From Desulfosediminicola ganghwensis (GTDB lineage Bacteria > Desulfobacterota > Desulfobulbia > Desulfobulbales > Desulfocapsaceae): DNA of 64,000 bases. Under the pieces are notes generated by a model. That model was not told the DNA's origin. It saw nothing but the letters and a program-made list of their open reading frames with translations, and searched no databases. The stretch spans positions 1,449,001 to 1,513,000 of the forward strand of contig NZ_CP050699.1 in NCBI RefSeq assembly GCF_005116675.2, in the 5' to 3' direction. A program made the translations under genes and the position numbers. Shown here piece after piece: positions 5,075-39,826 of the stretch (the stretch's first letter is position 1; each line of letters opens with the position of its first letter).

Positions 5075-5150
5075 TAAAAGATAAAGCCAAACCTGCCGCA
5101 AGGCAGGGACGGAAAGTCACGGGTCTTAAATGATAGCCGAACTGCCTTTG
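5075..5150 (+). promoter_or_regulatory. cyclic di-GMP-I (GEMM) riboswitch aptamer
   Basis: The segment has the GEMM-I hallmarks in order: GCCAAACC (5086-5093); a 6-bp hairpin CCTGCC-GCAA-GGCAGG (5092-5107) capped by a GNRA tetraloop; GGGACGGAAAGTCACGGGTCT; then GATAGCCGAACTGCC (5132-5146). These align with the family consensus (GGCAAACC, GNRA hairpin, GGGACGCAAAGCC, CACGGGTCT, AGCCGGGTTGCC). The second stem is unusually short. The 3' strand is also the 5' arm of the terminator that follows, so ligand binding and termination should compete. Known members sense c-di-GMP. The downstream target is the secreted protein at 5390. Confidence 0.87.
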
Positions 5151-5389: not shown

Positions 5390-5917
5390 ATGAAAACTTC
5401 AATTATCAGTGTCTGCATGTTTTTGGGGCTGCTTGGTGGCAACGTAGCACTTGCAGATAACACAAGTGAAATGATTGCCAGTGCAGAAAGCGCGGCTCCC
5501 CCTGTCGTTACTGGGGATGCCACCATAAAGGCATCGGACGGTACTGTTCTGCGCGAAGGTACAAACGGCTATACCTGTTATCCGCAACAAGAGACCATGG
5601 GGCCAATGTGTAATGACGCGGTTTGGGATGAGCTCATTGACGCGATGGTGAATAAACGGGATTTCCAGGCCAACAGCGTCGGCATTTCGTACATGCTGGC
5701 AGGTGAAGGCACTGCCCTCGGAGTAAGTAACAGCGACCCCTATCTCAGGGAACCAAAAGAAGGCGATGACTGGGTAAAGGAGGGACCTCACCTGATGATT
5801 GTTGTTCCTGACCGTACCATGCTCGACGGTCTGTCAACGGACCCCAAAGACCCGGTCTACGTGATGTGGAAAGATACGCCATACGCACACATCATGGTCA
5901 AAATCGCACCTGAATAA
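5390..5917 (+). CDS. secreted protein of unknown function
   Basis: A 175-residue protein with a clear signal peptide (cleavage likely after VALA, about residue 22), so exported to the periplasm or outside. The mature part contains NGYTCYPQ, a second cysteine in MCND, GISYMLAGEG, GPHLMIVVPD and a C-terminal YVMWKDTPYAHIMVKI. The two cysteines may form a disulfide. It resembles a conserved proteobacterial family of uncharacterised exported proteins; I know no function. GGAGG precedes the ATG by 7 nt. The gene stands alone, 215 nt after the c-di-GMP riboswitch/terminator, so its expression probably follows c-di-GMP. A stem-loop at 5931-5960 follows it. Confidence 0.8.
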   Translation: MKTSIISVCMFLGLLGGNVALADNTSEMIASAESAAPPVVTGDATIKASDGTVLREGTNGYTCYPQQETMGPMCNDAVWDELIDAMVNKRDFQANSVGISYMLAGEGTALGVSNSDPYLREPKEGDDWVKEGPHLMIVVPDRTMLDGLSTDPKDPVYVMWKDTPYAHIMVKIAPE

Positions 5918-13405: not shown

Positions 13406-13503
13406 GGAAGTGGACAGGGCACTGGTGGCCCTCCCGGACTTCAAATCCGGTGTAGCGGGTTAATAGCCCGCTAGGTGGGTTCGATTCCCATGCACTTCCG
13501 CCA
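13406..13503 (+). tRNA. selC: tRNA-Sec (UCA)
   Basis: The acceptor stem GGAAGTG pairs with CACTTCC, then G and an encoded CCA. The anticodon loop CTTCAAA (13439-13445) gives anticodon UCA at 13441-13443, between CCGGA and TCCGG. There is a long variable arm (AGCGGGTTAATAGCCCGCT) and a T arm with GGTTCGATTCC. The 98-nt length and long extra arm are typical of bacterial tRNA-Sec. This shows that the organism inserts selenocysteine; selA, selB and selD are not in the window, and no gene here shows an obvious in-frame UGA. Confidence 0.96.
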
Positions 13504-35075: not shown

Positions 35076-35090
35076 ACACACTCTTTGAGT

Positions 35091-35176
35091 GCCGAAGTGG
35101 TGGAATTGGTAGACACGCTATCTTGAGGGGGTAGTGGGCCACGCCCGTACGAGTTCGACTCTCGTCTTCGGCACCA
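35091..35176 (+). tRNA. tRNA-Leu (GAG), copy 1
   Basis: Acceptor GCCGAAG pairs with CTTCGGC, then A and encoded CCA. The anticodon stem CTATC/GGTAG encloses loop TTGAGGG with anticodon GAG at 35125-35127. A long variable arm marks a class II tRNA. It lies 15 nt after secG and is followed by a terminator. An identical 86-nt copy is at 39741. Confidence 0.96.
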
Positions 35177-35587
35177 TTTATATAAAACCGTAAATTACTG
35201 AACAGTAATTTACGGTTTTTTTTTATCCATTTTTTTAAATTGGATTTTCAGGTTGCTTTTGAATCTCAGCAAGGATCGATCGGGAATTAGGCGTGAGAAT
35301 ACAGACGTATAGGTTCAGTTGATTATATGCCTGATAAAAATACGCTGAAAGAATTGGAATGAAACGCTGCCCTGGTAGGGTGTAACTTCTAAATCTTTTT
35401 TTTATCCTCCCTCAAATCTTACGCTGAGGATGCTGGTAATCTCATTGTGTGTTGTCGCCATGTTGTCTATGTCTATAAACGACTATCCATCTATTCCCCG
35501 CCACCTTGTAATCATTGACCCCTTAACGGTTTCTCACTATCATCTGCTTTTCATGTAGGCAATCGAAATGTATTCAGTGAGGCAAGA
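35177..35587. other. intergenic region upstream of CooA-like gene
   Basis: 410 nt. It begins with the tRNA-Leu terminator (35184-35224). The rest has no gene. Two direct TGTC half-sites spaced in TTGTCGCCATGTTGTC (about 35453-35468) are the only hint of a CooA-type half-site near the regulator gene. Confidence 0.4.
35184..35224 (+). terminator. terminator of gap-secG-tRNA-Leu unit
   Basis: AAAACCGTAAATTACTG pairs with CAGTAATTTACGGTTTT (17 bp) followed by nine T residues. Confidence 0.93.
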
Positions 35588-36250
35588 ATGAAATTTCTAG
35601 AGGCGAATCTTCTCGATCATCTTGAAAGACCTGAGTTTGCAGACCTGTATTCAGCCCTGGAGCCCGAATATCATGCCAAGGGGAACTTTGTCAGTCAGCC
35701 GGGTGATCAGCGCAATCGAATCTTCATTGTTGTGCATGGCCGGGTGCGTATTTATCTCGGTTATGAGGAAAAGGAGTTCAGTCTCGGTATTCTGACGCGC
35801 GGAGATATCTATTCGAGCCATACCCCTACATTTGTGCAGGCGCTTACTGACGCAACCCTGCTTACCGCCAACGTTGAGACTTTCCGGCAACGCATGGTCG
35901 GTGACCCTGAAATCACCAAAGCCATGGTACGGGTGCTGGGTAATATTCTGGAGCGTTCTTTCTCAATAATTGACAGCCTTGCCTTTAAGGATGTGGGTGC
36001 ACGTCTGATAGCTCTGCTCTCCTACGAAGCGAGAAAACACGGATCAGTGCAGGGTGATGGTTCAATTGAGGTTGAAATAGATCTGTCGACCGAGCACCTG
36101 GCTCGTCTTGTGGGCTCGTCGAGGCAGACGATCTCAATGCTCCTCAATGAACTTATACGTGGCGATCTTGTTATCCGGCCACGGCGGGGACTCTATGTAA
36201 TTCAGGACATTCAGGCCCTGGAACATGCTGGTGGGATAGGTATCCAGTAA
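35588..36250 (+). CDS. cooA: CooA-like CO-sensing Crp/Fnr regulator
   Basis: A 220-residue Crp/Fnr-family activator. The effector domain contains HGRVRIYLG and GDIYSSHTP; His 78 aligns with the heme-ligand His77 of Rhodospirillum rubrum CooA (GDMFCMHSG). A Ser replaces R. rubrum Cys75, as expected for most other CooAs. A long C-helix precedes the winged HTH with LVGSSRQTISMLLNELI, close to CooA's recognition helix SSRQTTSTALN. It lies 131 nt before cooS, which has a perfect CooA-type box in its promoter. This context and the aligned His make CO sensing through heme the best reading. N-terminal Pro ligand is not obvious (MKFLEANLL), so the second heme ligand is uncertain. Confidence 0.85.
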   Translation: MKFLEANLLDHLERPEFADLYSALEPEYHAKGNFVSQPGDQRNRIFIVVHGRVRIYLGYEEKEFSLGILTRGDIYSSHTPTFVQALTDATLLTANVETFRQRMVGDPEITKAMVRVLGNILERSFSIIDSLAFKDVGARLIALLSYEARKHGSVQGDGSIEVEIDLSTEHLARLVGSSRQTISMLLNELIRGDLVIRPRRGLYVIQDIQALEHAGGIGIQ

Positions 36251-36276
36251 GCGGTATTGTTTTTTTCTTTTTCCTC

Positions 36277-36292
36277 TGTCAGGTAGACGACA
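36277..36292. promoter_or_regulatory. CooA binding box upstream of cooS
   Basis: TGTCA-GGTAGA-CGACA is an exact match to the R. rubrum CooA operator TGTCA-N6-CGACA. It is about 90 nt before the cooS start and about 40 nt before TACATA (about 36322-36327), a possible -10, fitting a class II activator position. Confidence 0.82.
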
Positions 36293-36381
36293 GTTTTTTA
36301 ACTGACGACGGTGTACTGATGTACATACCTAGTGAGGTAAACCGGGTTTCCTGAGCGTAAAAAGATTTCGGAGGAGAAAAG

Positions 36382-38271
36382 ATGGCTAAAGATAGTGGTG
36401 ATGTGAAGAACAAAAGCATCTGGGAAGATGCTACGAAAATGATAGAAAAAGCGGCCAGGGATGGCGTGGAAACTGTCTGGGATCGTTTTGAACAACAAAC
36501 ACCCGGGTGCAAATTCTGTGAATTGGGGTTGACCTGCAAAAACTGCAATATGGGACCATGCAGGATCAGCCTCAAAGAAAACGGCAAGATGCAGCGTGGA
36601 GTTTGCGGGGCTGATGGTAACGTCATTGTAGCCCGAAATTTCGGCCGCTTTGTCGCTGGTGGCTCTGCTGGACATTCCGACCATGGCCGGGACCTGATTG
36701 AAGTACTTGAAGCGATAGTGGAGGGCAAAGCCAGTGCTTACACCATCACGAATGAAGAGAAGCTGTACCGGGTCGCACAGGAGGTAGGAGTAGCCACCGA
36801 TGGCAGGACAAAGCAGGATGTGGCGAGAGAACTGGTCGATGTCTTGTTTGCAGATTTCGGCAGCAGAAAAAAAGAACTGGCCTTTATGGGCCGGGTTCCC
36901 GAGAAGCGAAAAGAGATCTGGCGGCAGTTGAATGTAATTCCCCGGGGGGTGGACAGGGAAATAGCAGAGATGATGCACCGCACCCATATGGGGTGTGATA
37001 ATGACGCGATTTCCACCATGCTGCACTCAGCCCGGACGGCCTTGGCAGATGGTTGGGGTGGCTCGATGATTGGGACTGAATTGTCGGATATTATTTTCGG
37101 AGTACCGACCCCCGCTGCATCGAAAGTAAACCTGGGAGTGATCCGGAAAGAACAGGTCAATATCCTGGTGCATGGCCACAATCCGGTGGTCTCAGAAATG
37201 GTTTTGGCAGCAGCCCGTGATCCGGAAATGATTGCCAAAGCAAAAGCAGCCGGCGCGGAAGGCATCAATATCGGTGGATTGTGTTGTACCGGCAATGAGC
37301 TGCTCGGCCGTCAGGGAATTCCCATGGCAGGCAACCACCTGATGACGGAACTGGCCATAGTGACCGGGGCGGTGGAAGCTGTTGTGGTCGATTACCAGTG
37401 CATTATGCCAAGCCTGGTTCAGGCGGCTGCGTGTTATCATACCAGGTTTATCACGACTTCCGACAAGGCGCGTTTTACCGGTGCAACCCATGTGTCATTT
37501 GATACTTCAAGAGCAGCGGAGCAGGCGCGCCAGATCGTCGAAATGAGTATTGAGGCATATGGTAGTAGGGATAACTCAAGGGTTGAGATCCCGGTGGAGC
37601 CGGTGGATATAGTCTCAGGTTTCTCCAACGAAGCCCTGCTGGACATGCTGGGAGGTAGTCTTGAACCGTTGCTTGAGGCCATTAAGGACGGATCGATCCG
37701 TGGTGTCGTGGCGATAGTTGGCTGCAATAACCCCAAATTCACCCACGATTCACAGAACGTGGGGCTCGCTAAAGAGCTCATCAAGAGAGATATTCTCGTG
37801 CTCGCCACCGGCTGTATCACCACAGCGGCAGGAAAGGCGGGACTGATGGTTCCAGCAGGTGCCGAAATGGCAGGGCCGGGTTTGCAGAAGATCTGTGGCG
37901 CTCTTGATATACCACCGGTGCTGCACTTCGGCTCATGTGTTGATAATTCGCGGGTCATCCAGTTATGCGGTAGTATTGCCGACGCTCTGGGCGTTGACAT
38001 CTCTGATCTTCCGGTCTGGGGCGCTTCGCCTGAGTGGTATTCGGAGAAAGCGGTGGCTATTGGCGTTTATTGCGTGGCTTCCGGTATTCCGGTGCAGATC
38101 GGTACCCCGCCCCAGATCACTGGTTCAAAGCTGGTGACTGATCTGGCAACAGGTGGGCTGGAAGACGTTTTTGGCGCATCATTTCTGGTGGAAGCGGATT
38201 ACAGGATTGCGGCAGAGAAGATGGATGAGCGGATCAAGGCAAAGCGTAAGGCGCTTGGGCTTGGTGAGTAG
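36382..38271 (+). CDS. cooS: anaerobic carbon-monoxide dehydrogenase, Ni-Fe catalytic subunit
   Basis: A 629-residue CODH oxidising CO with water to CO2, two electrons and protons. Cluster D/B cysteines are in GCKFCELGLTCKNCNMGPC (about 37-55). The C-cluster ligands are all visible: His in LVHGHNPVV, Cys in GGLCCTGNELL, Cys in DYQCIMPSL, VGCNNPKF, ATGCITTAAGKAG and HFGSCVDNSR. Length is typical. There is no cooF, cooC, hydrogenase or acs cluster in the window, so electron acceptor and Ni insertion factors are encoded elsewhere. GGAGGAG precedes the ATG. Regulation by the neighbouring CooA-like protein through the box at 36277 is strongly suggested. Confidence 0.97.
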   Translation: MAKDSGDVKNKSIWEDATKMIEKAARDGVETVWDRFEQQTPGCKFCELGLTCKNCNMGPCRISLKENGKMQRGVCGADGNVIVARNFGRFVAGGSAGHSDHGRDLIEVLEAIVEGKASAYTITNEEKLYRVAQEVGVATDGRTKQDVARELVDVLFADFGSRKKELAFMGRVPEKRKEIWRQLNVIPRGVDREIAEMMHRTHMGCDNDAISTMLHSARTALADGWGGSMIGTELSDIIFGVPTPAASKVNLGVIRKEQVNILVHGHNPVVSEMVLAAARDPEMIAKAKAAGAEGINIGGLCCTGNELLGRQGIPMAGNHLMTELAIVTGAVEAVVVDYQCIMPSLVQAAACYHTRFITTSDKARFTGATHVSFDTSRAAEQARQIVEMSIEAYGSRDNSRVEIPVEPVDIVSGFSNEALLDMLGGSLEPLLEAIKDGSIRGVVAIVGCNNPKFTHDSQNVGLAKELIKRDILVLATGCITTAAGKAGLMVPAGAEMAGPGLQKICGALDIPPVLHFGSCVDNSRVIQLCGSIADALGVDISDLPVWGASPEWYSEKAVAIGVYCVASGIPVQIGTPPQITGSKLVTDLATGGLEDVFGASFLVEADYRIAAEKMDERIKAKRKALGLGE

Positions 38272-38358
38272 TCACAATTCAGGTTGTAAAGGGTGGGGCA
38301 GTACACGGCAATAACATTGCTGTGATACGTTCAACTGTACGACAGATCACAGACAAAG

Positions 38359-38393
38359 AAAAAGGGGGTGTTCCGTGTGAACACCCCCTTTTT
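38359..38393. terminator. bidirectional terminator cooS / satP
   Basis: AAAAAGGGGGTGTTC pairs with GAACACCCCCTTTTT (15 bp) between the convergent cooS and acetate-transporter genes, with T runs in both directions. Confidence 0.92.
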
Positions 38394-38423
38394 CCGTTCG
38401 GCGAATTACAGGCTGATACCAGC

Positions 38424-38987
38424 TTATTTCTTTAGTGCACCAATGGGCAGAACGGTACGGCCGTACTCATTGTTCAGTACCTGCGCCATGGCAAAATAGA
38501 TCGCGCTCGCGCCACAGATGATGCCTTCAAAGCCGGCAATGGTACCGATCAACTCGCTGCCGGTGAAATCGCGGGCAGCAAGCAGAAAGAACAGCAGCGT
38601 CAATGAACCGAACACAAACTGTTTGGCCCGGGGATAGCGGAGTGAGCCGACAAACATGAAGGTGGTGAAAATTCCCCAGAGGAGAAGGTACCAGCCCATG
38701 AAGCTATGTGGACTTGCAGGTAGTCCCATATGCGGCATGGTGAGCAGGCCAACAAGGGTAAGCCAGAACAGTCCGTAAGAAGTAAAGGCCGTGGTGCCGA
38801 AGGTGTCACCCCGGAAAAAGCACATGATGCCGACGATTACCTGGGCTATACCACCATAGAAAATGCCCATGGCAAGAATCATGGAGTCGATGGGAAAGAA
38901 CCCGGCATTGTGAATATTGAGCAGAATAGTTGTCATACCGAACCCCATAAGTCCTAGGGGTGCGGGATTGGCAAGTTCGCGAGACAT
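38424..38987 (-). CDS. satP: SatP/YaaH-family acetate (succinate) transporter
   Basis: A 187-residue membrane protein with six transmembrane helices. It begins with the family signature NPAPLGLMGFGMTTILLN (about 7-24) of the GPR1/FUN34/YaaH (AceTr) family, and has GIFYGGIAQVIVGIMCF and GTTAFTSYGLFW. It moves acetate or other short carboxylates across the inner membrane. Its position between two identical tRNA-Leu genes, next to CODH, suggests a link with C1/acetate metabolism; this is inference only. Start ATG at 38987 has AGGGTGAAAC upstream. Confidence 0.93.
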   Translation of the reverse strand: MSRELANPAPLGLMGFGMTTILLNIHNAGFFPIDSMILAMGIFYGGIAQVIVGIMCFFRGDTFGTTAFTSYGLFWLTLVGLLTMPHMGLPASPHSFMGWYLLLWGIFTTFMFVGSLRYPRAKQFVFGSLTLLFFLLAARDFTGSELIGTIAGFEGIICGASAIYFAMAQVLNNEYGRTVLPIGALKK

Positions 38988-39740
38988 GTTTCACCCTTTG
39001 TAAATGAATAATTCCAGCCACCGTTGATGCTACTGCGCATCAGGTGCAAAAGAAAAAGGGAGGAACTTACAGAAAGACGGGGAGTAAAGCAATTAAAATT
39101 CACGAAAACATGTTGTGATATGTACTTCGCAAAGTGATAGTTCTACCTCTGTGATGAGGGAATGTGCTGGTATCTCAAAGATATTCAGAAGCCAGGATGT
39201 ACCGCTCTCATAGATGACAAAAATGCAGAATGTCGAATGAGGTTTTACGGCATATCCTCAAAGCGACGGGTTGAGCTCATTCGGCAGAAATATTCTCTAT
39301 GTGGACGCGGGGTGAGAACCTCGATGTCCTTTGCAGGGCAACCTCATATTATGACCCTGCAGTAAGGTCCTAGCGTTATGAGTAATTCTCCGCAGGCATC
39401 TGTGGGTAACGTAGCGGGAGCCTCTCAAACGGTTTGGCAGAATCGGGCATAGAGTAAATTTGAAGGTGAAATTGACCGTTTGTTTATGCGAGATGATCTT
39501 TAGCTGCGAAAAGTCGGGTAAAGGTGTCATGCGTAGACATCTGTGTGGACTGTGTTACAATCAACAAAGAAAATTGAATTATGTTGTGAACAATTCTTGA
39601 CCTTGTCCCGGGGCTATGGTAAAAACACGTCTCCTTGCTACGGGAGAGCAGAAACTGCTCAACCGTCCGGGTCAACTACCTGATATCAGCAGTCCGGATA
39701 CCAGGCAGCTTTAACCGGAGCAATCATATTGCTGTTATGT
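38988..39740. other. long non-coding gap before second tRNA-Leu
   Basis: About 750 nt with no credible ORF on either strand. The sequence 39240-39480 has coding-like but broken frames (e.g. RRVELIRQKYSL), compatible with decayed mobile DNA that I cannot identify. TTGACC (39597) and TAAAAA (39620) with 17-nt spacing could be a promoter for the tRNA at 39741, although 115 nt away. Confidence 0.4.
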
Positions 39741-39826
39741 GCCGAAGTGGTGGAATTGGTAGACACGCTATCTTGAGGGGGTAGTGGGCCACGCCCGTAC
39801 GAGTTCGACTCTCGTCTTCGGCACCA
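39741..39826 (+). tRNA. tRNA-Leu (GAG), copy 2
   Basis: Identical over all 86 nt to 35091-35176, including CCA and anticodon GAG (39775-39777). Flanking DNA differs except for a short ATATAAAA before each terminator. Antisense translation of this tRNA gives a spurious protein, which I do not annotate. Confidence 0.95.

Follow-up and report, generated by a model that had tools for sequence, protein, structure and literature searches.

Within a 64,000-nt stretch of the genome of Desulfosediminicola ganghwensis IMCC35004 (the window), the gene cooA for a Crp/Fnr-type regulator of the CO (carbon monoxide)-sensing family is followed on the same strand by cooS, the gene for a nickel-containing CO dehydrogenase (CODH). 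The gap of 131 nt between them contains the sequence TGTCAGGTAGACGACA, an exact match to TGTCA-N6-CGACA and the predicted operator of the system (Table 1). The organism is a tidal-flat sulfate reducer of the family Desulfocapsaceae (PMC8497536; this and all other papers cited by PMC number are represented by excerpts), and its genome is a single contig of 5,653,142 bases, on which the window occupies positions 1,449,001-1,513,000. A first-pass annotation of the DNA had reported a regulator ahead of a complete Ni-CODH gene; the coordinates of both genes (35588-36250 and 36382-38271) and their spacing are correct.

That cooS encodes a Ni-CODH in which Cys, His and Lys occupy the expected places is supported by several lines of comparison. 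Its product scores 706.6 bits against the CODH equivalog TIGR01702 (cut-off 478), and the nearest solved structure is 6b6v (7.5e-279), which we take to be the CODH of Desulfovibrio vulgaris. C301/C302, C340, C448, C478, C519, H264/H266, H98/H101 and K556 are all present and aligned with 6b6v, and presumably serve in the B- and C-clusters and in acid-base catalysis. The motif C43-X2-C46-X5-C52 is found at the D-cluster position. This is the type III D-cluster motif (Cys-X2-Cys-X5-Cys) of structural group E-2 (PMC6344411), to which the product would belong as judged by motif. In the D. vulgaris enzyme, C-X2-C is the site of a [2Fe-2S] cluster (PMC6168284).

For the cooA product, Pfam yields general Crp domains only, and none of the NCBIfam equivalogs is above cut-off. 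The name CooA is thus used because of structure matches and gene context. Among solved structures the best match is CooA-1 of Carboxydothermus hydrogenoformans (2fmy, 4.2e-41, residues 1-213), followed by CooA of Rhodospirillum rubrum (1ft9, 8.3e-32). Both matches are near full length and both outrank other full-length Crp/Fnr chains. The first-pass annotation had placed His78 at the heme-ligand position of CooA, and alignment bears this out. The segment GDIYSSHTP covers residues 72-80, and in the alignment its His78 falls on the His of GDMFCMH in 1ft9 and of GDIFCTH in 2fmy, and thus with the proximal heme ligand His77 of R. rubrum. This position is His in all 75 aligned CooAs (the window protein and those from 74 further loci, a few of them truncated).

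The box of R. rubrum CooA is of the TGTCA-N6-CGACA form, and TGTCAGGTAGACGACA is the sole exact occurrence of this pattern in the window. With up to one mismatch the window contains 2 matches (3.39 expected), and the whole genome contains 10 exact matches and 339 with up to one mismatch (333 for a reversed control). The chance that one of 10 exact sites falls into a given 131-nt gap is estimated at about 2 in 10,000. Pattern counts by themselves are weak evidence for an operator, and the genome scan which the first-pass annotation had proposed is uninformative when taken alone.

Comparison with relatives is far more telling. We gathered 74 CooA loci, of which 43 have a same-strand cooS at most 600 nt downstream; in the other 31 the CODH is absent, upstream or more distant, or the contig ends. 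Together with the window this gives 44 pairs, including one with a disrupted cooA (L152); clustering of the 44 CooAs gives 41 groups at 90% identity and 16 groups at 70%. A TGTC-N8-GACA box lies within the gap in 42 of the 44 pairs, while dinucleotide shuffles predict 0.11. It is this conservation, much more than the single exact match, on which we base the predicted operator. The first-pass annotation was right about the exact match between the genes, but what it took for the R. rubrum consensus is one form of a palindromic site: the asymmetric TGTCA-N6-CGACA occurs, on either strand, in 12 of the 44 pairs. The consensus of the relatives' boxes is roughly TGTCrGCnnGCyGACA, and the CooA motif TGTCGGCnnGCCGACA reported ahead of cooSC in Desulfovibrio (PMC545781) agrees with it.

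When the 42 gaps were aligned on the box and bases touching it were excluded, T was found at +37 in 37, A at +38 in 38 and T at +42 in 35 of them. Because this -10-like TAnnnT keeps a fixed distance from the box, the box centre would be near -41.5 from the inferred transcription start, which is the position of a class II activator. The window has a -10-like hexamer at the aligned position, which begins 29.5 bp from the centre of the box. A scoring motif built from 31 relatives' boxes, with the window box left out, gives 21.7 for the window box and 12.7 to 25.6 for the relatives. Eight of the nine other exact sites in the genome lie inside open frames of at least 120 codons, and the ninth, outside such frames, scores 2.6 and has no phased TA. 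Only the cooS site of the ten has at once a score like those of the family, a phased TA and a position outside open reading frames (ORFs), and it is by these properties that the genome scan singles it out. The box could in principle be a chance match, with cooS read through from cooA or transcribed from another promoter, and the ten exact copies and the lack of enrichment at one mismatch would suit such an explanation. In view of the conservation and phasing over 42 of 44 pairs and of the poor placing of the other exact sites, we consider it extremely improbable.

Among the one-mismatch matches listed, 16 palindromic or near-palindromic sites were scored, and a phased TA was present in none of the five examined; a site at 1,337,277, outside these five, scores 13.9. 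Further CooA targets in the genome are possible. Upstream of cooA itself, no box with up to one mismatch was found in 35181-35588. Such a box is located 69 to 222 nt upstream of cooA in six of the 74 loci (L084, L085, L089, L090, L106 and L114) and 374 nt upstream in L145.

We consider it very likely (probability about 0.9) that a CooA-type, heme-based sensor of CO activates the adjoining cooS through the box at 36277-36292 in a class II manner, and CooA control of the CODH appears well supported by the sequence comparisons. Computation shows to which families the proteins belong, the heme-ligand His, the motifs of the CODH, and a conserved box at a fixed distance from the -10. From these we infer the course of events. 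CO would be bound through the heme at His78, and the CO-bound CooA dimer would bind the palindromic box some 41.5 bp ahead of the inferred transcription start, activating rather than repressing the cooS promoter. The CODH would work in the direction of CO oxidation to CO2 at its Ni-Fe-S C-cluster. A [2Fe-2S] D-cluster of the D. vulgaris type would pass electrons on to an acceptor, and a CooC-type ATPase would be used for maturation, with both the acceptor and the ATPase encoded elsewhere.

Several observations weigh against this interpretation. The box is absent from two of the 44 pairs (L117 and L134), and the -10-like hexamer of the window, TACTGA, is imperfect, with A instead of T at the sixth base. 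Three of the exact sites within open frames score 14.2 to 17.9, which is inside the family range, and another, with a low score (6.6), has a phased TA. Because the patterns used to collect the loci derive from near relatives of the window CooA, the set is biased towards similar systems. In the regulator itself, R. rubrum Cys75 is replaced by Ser76 and the Pro2 N-terminus is absent, the chain starting with Met-Lys, so that gating may differ. The Cys75 position is occupied by Ser in 48, Ala in 15, Val in 7, Thr in 5 and Cys in none of the 75 aligned CooAs; in alignment A1 it is Cys in 0 of 10 and Pro in one. Given the way the loci were chosen, this pattern describes the present CooA lineage, not CooAs at large. 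CooA of C. hydrogenoformans is described as having a heme without redox ligand exchange (PMC6955866), and Cys75 is therefore not obligatory for the family. The window CooA would then not be gated by a thiolate swap, and the Cys-less lineage as a whole probably consists of non-swapping CO sensors.

The same two missing features could also mean that the regulator is heme-based but senses another signal, such as nitric oxide or redox state, in the way of HcpR or DNR, and that the CODH is its neighbour by chance. Some close CooA homologues are indeed encoded in genomes without a detected full CODH. Yet the solved CooAs are the best matches, above other full-length Crp/Fnr chains, box and CODH occur together in 42 of the 44 pairs, and in the four CODH-free genomes searched a box of this type precedes CODH-derived genes. 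We thus regard a different signal as very improbable.

The two-gene form is common in relatives and is of a kind already known from Desulfovibrio. Pairs from other Desulfocapsaceae (Desulfosediminicola flagellatus, Desulfopila aestuarii and others) have the same two genes, box and spacing. CooA (E-value up to 1e-25) was found in 52 of 257 genomes of the order. Two of three other members of the genus have an intact cooA-cooS pair, while both genes are disrupted in genome G001 (L051:5815-8561, the same region as L152), which suggests either loss of the module or sequence errors. A cooC gene lies at most 1.5 kb after cooS in 11 of the 36 decidable pairs and is missing there in the other 25 (7 of the 43 lack sequence for a decision), and a pair without adjacent cooC is thus the common form near this genome. 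Locus L127 (record L048) has a cooA with a CooA-type box downstream at 5543 and no CODH in the rest of its 10.2-kb contig; a CODH-size frame is found on another contig of the same genome (G027:C108).

The first-pass annotation had set the arrangement against that of R. rubrum, but it is not unusual: there are the 43 further adjacent pairs, and D. desulfuricans G20 was described in 2004 with a CooA-controlled CODH that lacks a hydrogenase operon, its CODH operon being the sole coo operon (PMC545781). Both this strain and D. vulgaris Hildenborough have a CooA-type palindrome upstream of cooS, and the D. vulgaris CooS belongs to group E-2 (PMC6344411). In these Desulfovibrio strains, however, cooC follows cooS, and D. 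vulgaris also has a CODH-associated hydrogenase operon elsewhere. The cooFSCTJ system of R. rubrum shares the CooA family and the box form with the window but differs in the regulator (Cys75 and a Met-Pro start, PMC6955866), in the enzyme, which is of group F-2 (PMC6344411), and in its cooF, cooC and hydrogenase, none of which was seen beside the window cooS (cooF by eye). C. hydrogenoformans CooA-1, the closest structural relative by sequence, differs in having a Cys two residues before the His and in starting 3-4 residues earlier in the alignment. According to a survey of cable bacteria (PMC11247825), other Desulfobulbales have no cooS-cooF-FNOR operon, which fits the lack of cooF at the window module.

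Searches of the window for a second CODH, a CooC homologue and a [NiFe] hydrogenase large subunit were negative, and no cooF was read by eye among the ORFs at 4.0-15.5 kb and 28-46 kb, a model search not being part of this reading. The first-pass statement that the CODH stands alone thus holds for CooC and hydrogenase, while for cooF it has the backing of inspection by eye. Its label of a self-contained, minimal unit is not supported, and the module may depend on genes elsewhere in the genome. Two clear CooC-like ATPases are encoded 2.6 Mb from the module and near other CODHs. One (4,074,326-4,074,913) is 44% identical to CooC of a relative with a cooA-cooS-cooC arrangement and the other, at 4,066,102, has 32% identity; a third match at 636,906 is weak and covers 34 residues. 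D. vulgaris CODH produced without the maturase CooC was not activatable (PMC6168284).

The CODHs in question, two in number, are located at 4.07-4.08 Mb and are 44% identical to the window cooS product; the genes beside them read, by eye, as acetyl-CoA synthase, corrinoid protein subunits and a methyltransferase. They bear on the role of the enzyme. Instead of detoxification, the CODH may mainly serve energy or carbon metabolism, either by feeding electrons from external CO into sulfate reduction or as a partner of the CODH/acetyl-CoA synthase pathway, and this would be compatible with the CooA-box-cooS mechanism. The acetyl-CoA synthase-like cluster, several [NiFe] hydrogenase large-subunit matches in the genome (none within the window) and the Wood-Ljungdahl genes reported for the strain (PMC8497536) are in favour of such a role. 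There is, on the other side, no hydrogenase beside cooS, and an inducible single enzyme is equally compatible with scavenging or detoxification. We give this role slightly less than an even chance. As to scavenging versus detoxification, the sequence fits either and does not discriminate. As a separate observation, the [NiFe] hydrogenase large-subunit match at G000:C1:1563759-1565216 (L162) has one internal TAG and lies 1.7 kb before a similar match that is free of stops.

The genomes with a close CooA homologue and no detected full CODH encode a CODH-derived protein which we call mini-CODH. As called, these proteins have 172-302 aa and match CODH only from about residue 410 on, its C-terminal third. 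Some or all of the C-cluster cysteines have been lost, and W-[CS]-D-[QR] forms a tail near the end. Seven genes were annotated (Table 1). L093, L095, L097 and L175 match TIGR01702 at 9.4e-31 to 8.1e-10, and L176-L178 match a profile of these four over nearly the full span of the profile (6.3e-54 to 9.1e-48). A TGTC-N8-GACA box lies close to the start of all seven, with a TA at +37 in five and at +38 in one; L176 has neither. The box is inside the longest frame in L178, as it is in L097 before a later start was chosen. The search of the order gave four whole-span matches (L175-L178) among the matches listed, one of which is a profile member by construction; short frames with partial profile matches (e.g. 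in G218, 248 aa) are outside this count. All four of these genomes encode CooA, which is present in 52 of the 257 genomes of the order. Searches of the genomes that carry L093, L095, L097 and L098, and of G109, gave no full CODH; G108 and G031 have one. In the Desulfogranum japonicum locus L098 (3957-4913), cooA comes after a gene reading, by eye, like a hydrogenase small subunit.

According to an excerpt of PMC11247825, Desulfogranum and Desulfobulbus have no CODH/acetyl-CoA synthase, CooC, CooT or CooJ. Mini-CooS of Thermosinus is described with complete cluster motifs (PMC8776680), and by this description mini-CODHs, with their lost cysteines, are of a different kind. The same survey excluded hits under 400 aa, which could be the reason why mini-CODHs went unlisted; our limited literature search on truncated or CODH-like proteins does not establish the family as undescribed. 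In the window genome there are three mini-CODH profile matches and three full CODHs, and the two matches listed are within full CODHs, so that it appears to have a cooS output only. We lean slightly towards the view that the Cys-less CooA lineage controls two outputs: cooS and, in relatives of which some belong to the same order, mini-CODH.

The module is located between two identical copies of tRNA-Leu(GAG), which bracket a segment (35177-39738) with cooA, cooS and a gene for an acetate transporter. The two remaining matches to this tRNA sequence in the genome have 80% and 78% identity. A terminator-like hairpin is seen by eye 3' of each copy, with similar layout and a different stem. The transporter gene adjoins the module, of which it is only a putative member; transporter matches were found in 4 of 10 relatives searched, all with 36-38% identity. 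In seven relatives' stretches, tRNA-Leu likewise comes after gap, rimI and secG, and none contains cooA or cooS. Six of the seven have pgk and a full tpiA in between and a single tRNA copy. In G003 there are two copies, 242 bp apart, and between gap and secG (L073:7250-9772) no pgk match was found and tpiA is partial, the rest of that genome being outside the search. The pairs of other Desulfocapsaceae, in turn, have no tRNA-Leu in stretches of 8.7-19 kb around their cooA. Because these seven tRNA sites lack cooA and cooS and the transporter is sparse and divergent in relatives, the module has probably moved to this site. A mobile island was considered and is not proposed: no integrase was seen by eye among the ORFs at 28-46 kb, GC content shows no step (0.44-0.54), and G003 has the tRNA duplicate without the module.

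Elsewhere in the window, a c-di-GMP-I-GGC riboswitch match (5077-5150, 73.2 bits) lies about 240 nt upstream of an ORF at 5390, which codes for 175 aa with a start that reads like a signal peptide. A tRNA-Sec (13406-13503) is found near an opposite-strand gene reading, by eye, like glyQ, and in L049 a tRNA-Sec is also beside a similar glyQ-like gene.

Table 1. Features of the cooA-cooS region (window positions) and mini-CODH genes of other genomes (positions in the respective locus record).
Feature	Positions	Strand	Remarks
tRNA-Leu(GAG) copy 1	35089..35176	+	after secG
cooA	35588..36250	+	220 aa Crp/Fnr-type regulator, CO-sensing family, Met-Lys N-terminus; structure-database matches
CooA box	36277..36292	+	exact TGTCA-N6-CGACA in cooA-cooS gap; predicted operator
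-10-like hexamer	36314..36319	+	TACTGA; aligned position in 42 gaps
Likely ribosome-binding site of cooS	36370..36375	+	GGAGGA; read from sequence
cooS	36382..38271	+	Ni-CODH, 629 aa, complete, type III D-cluster motif; CODH equivalog and structure match
Acetate transporter gene (AceTr/SatP type)	38424..38987	-	convergent with cooS; NF038013 279.2 bits, cut-off 50
tRNA-Leu(GAG) copy 2	39739..39826	+	identical to copy 1 over 88 bp
Mini-CODH L093	5691-6332	-	Spirochaetes metagenome-assembled genome
Mini-CODH L095	4266-4934	-	Cerasicoccus maritimus
Mini-CODH L097	5670-6185	-	Spirochaetes metagenome-assembled genome
Mini-CODH L175	1501-2244	+	same protein as L169; reached via Desulfogranum japonicum locus L098
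Mini-CODH L176	1402-2130	+	
Mini-CODH L177	1498-2283	-	
Mini-CODH L178	1216-2124	+	

In summary, CooA control of a lone CODH is indicated as a recurrent trait among Desulfobulbales-type sulfate reducers. The promoter geometry, with a class II position and 29.5 bp from box centre to -10, is fixed enough for the prediction of CooA targets. The Cys-less CooAs lend themselves naturally to the question whether a redox ligand swap is needed for CO sensing. CooA-boxed CODH fragments in genomes without a detected full CODH raise the question what purpose a CO response has without such an enzyme. If the Cys-less lineage does control both outputs, mini-CODH would form an arm of the CO response that is not enzymatic.

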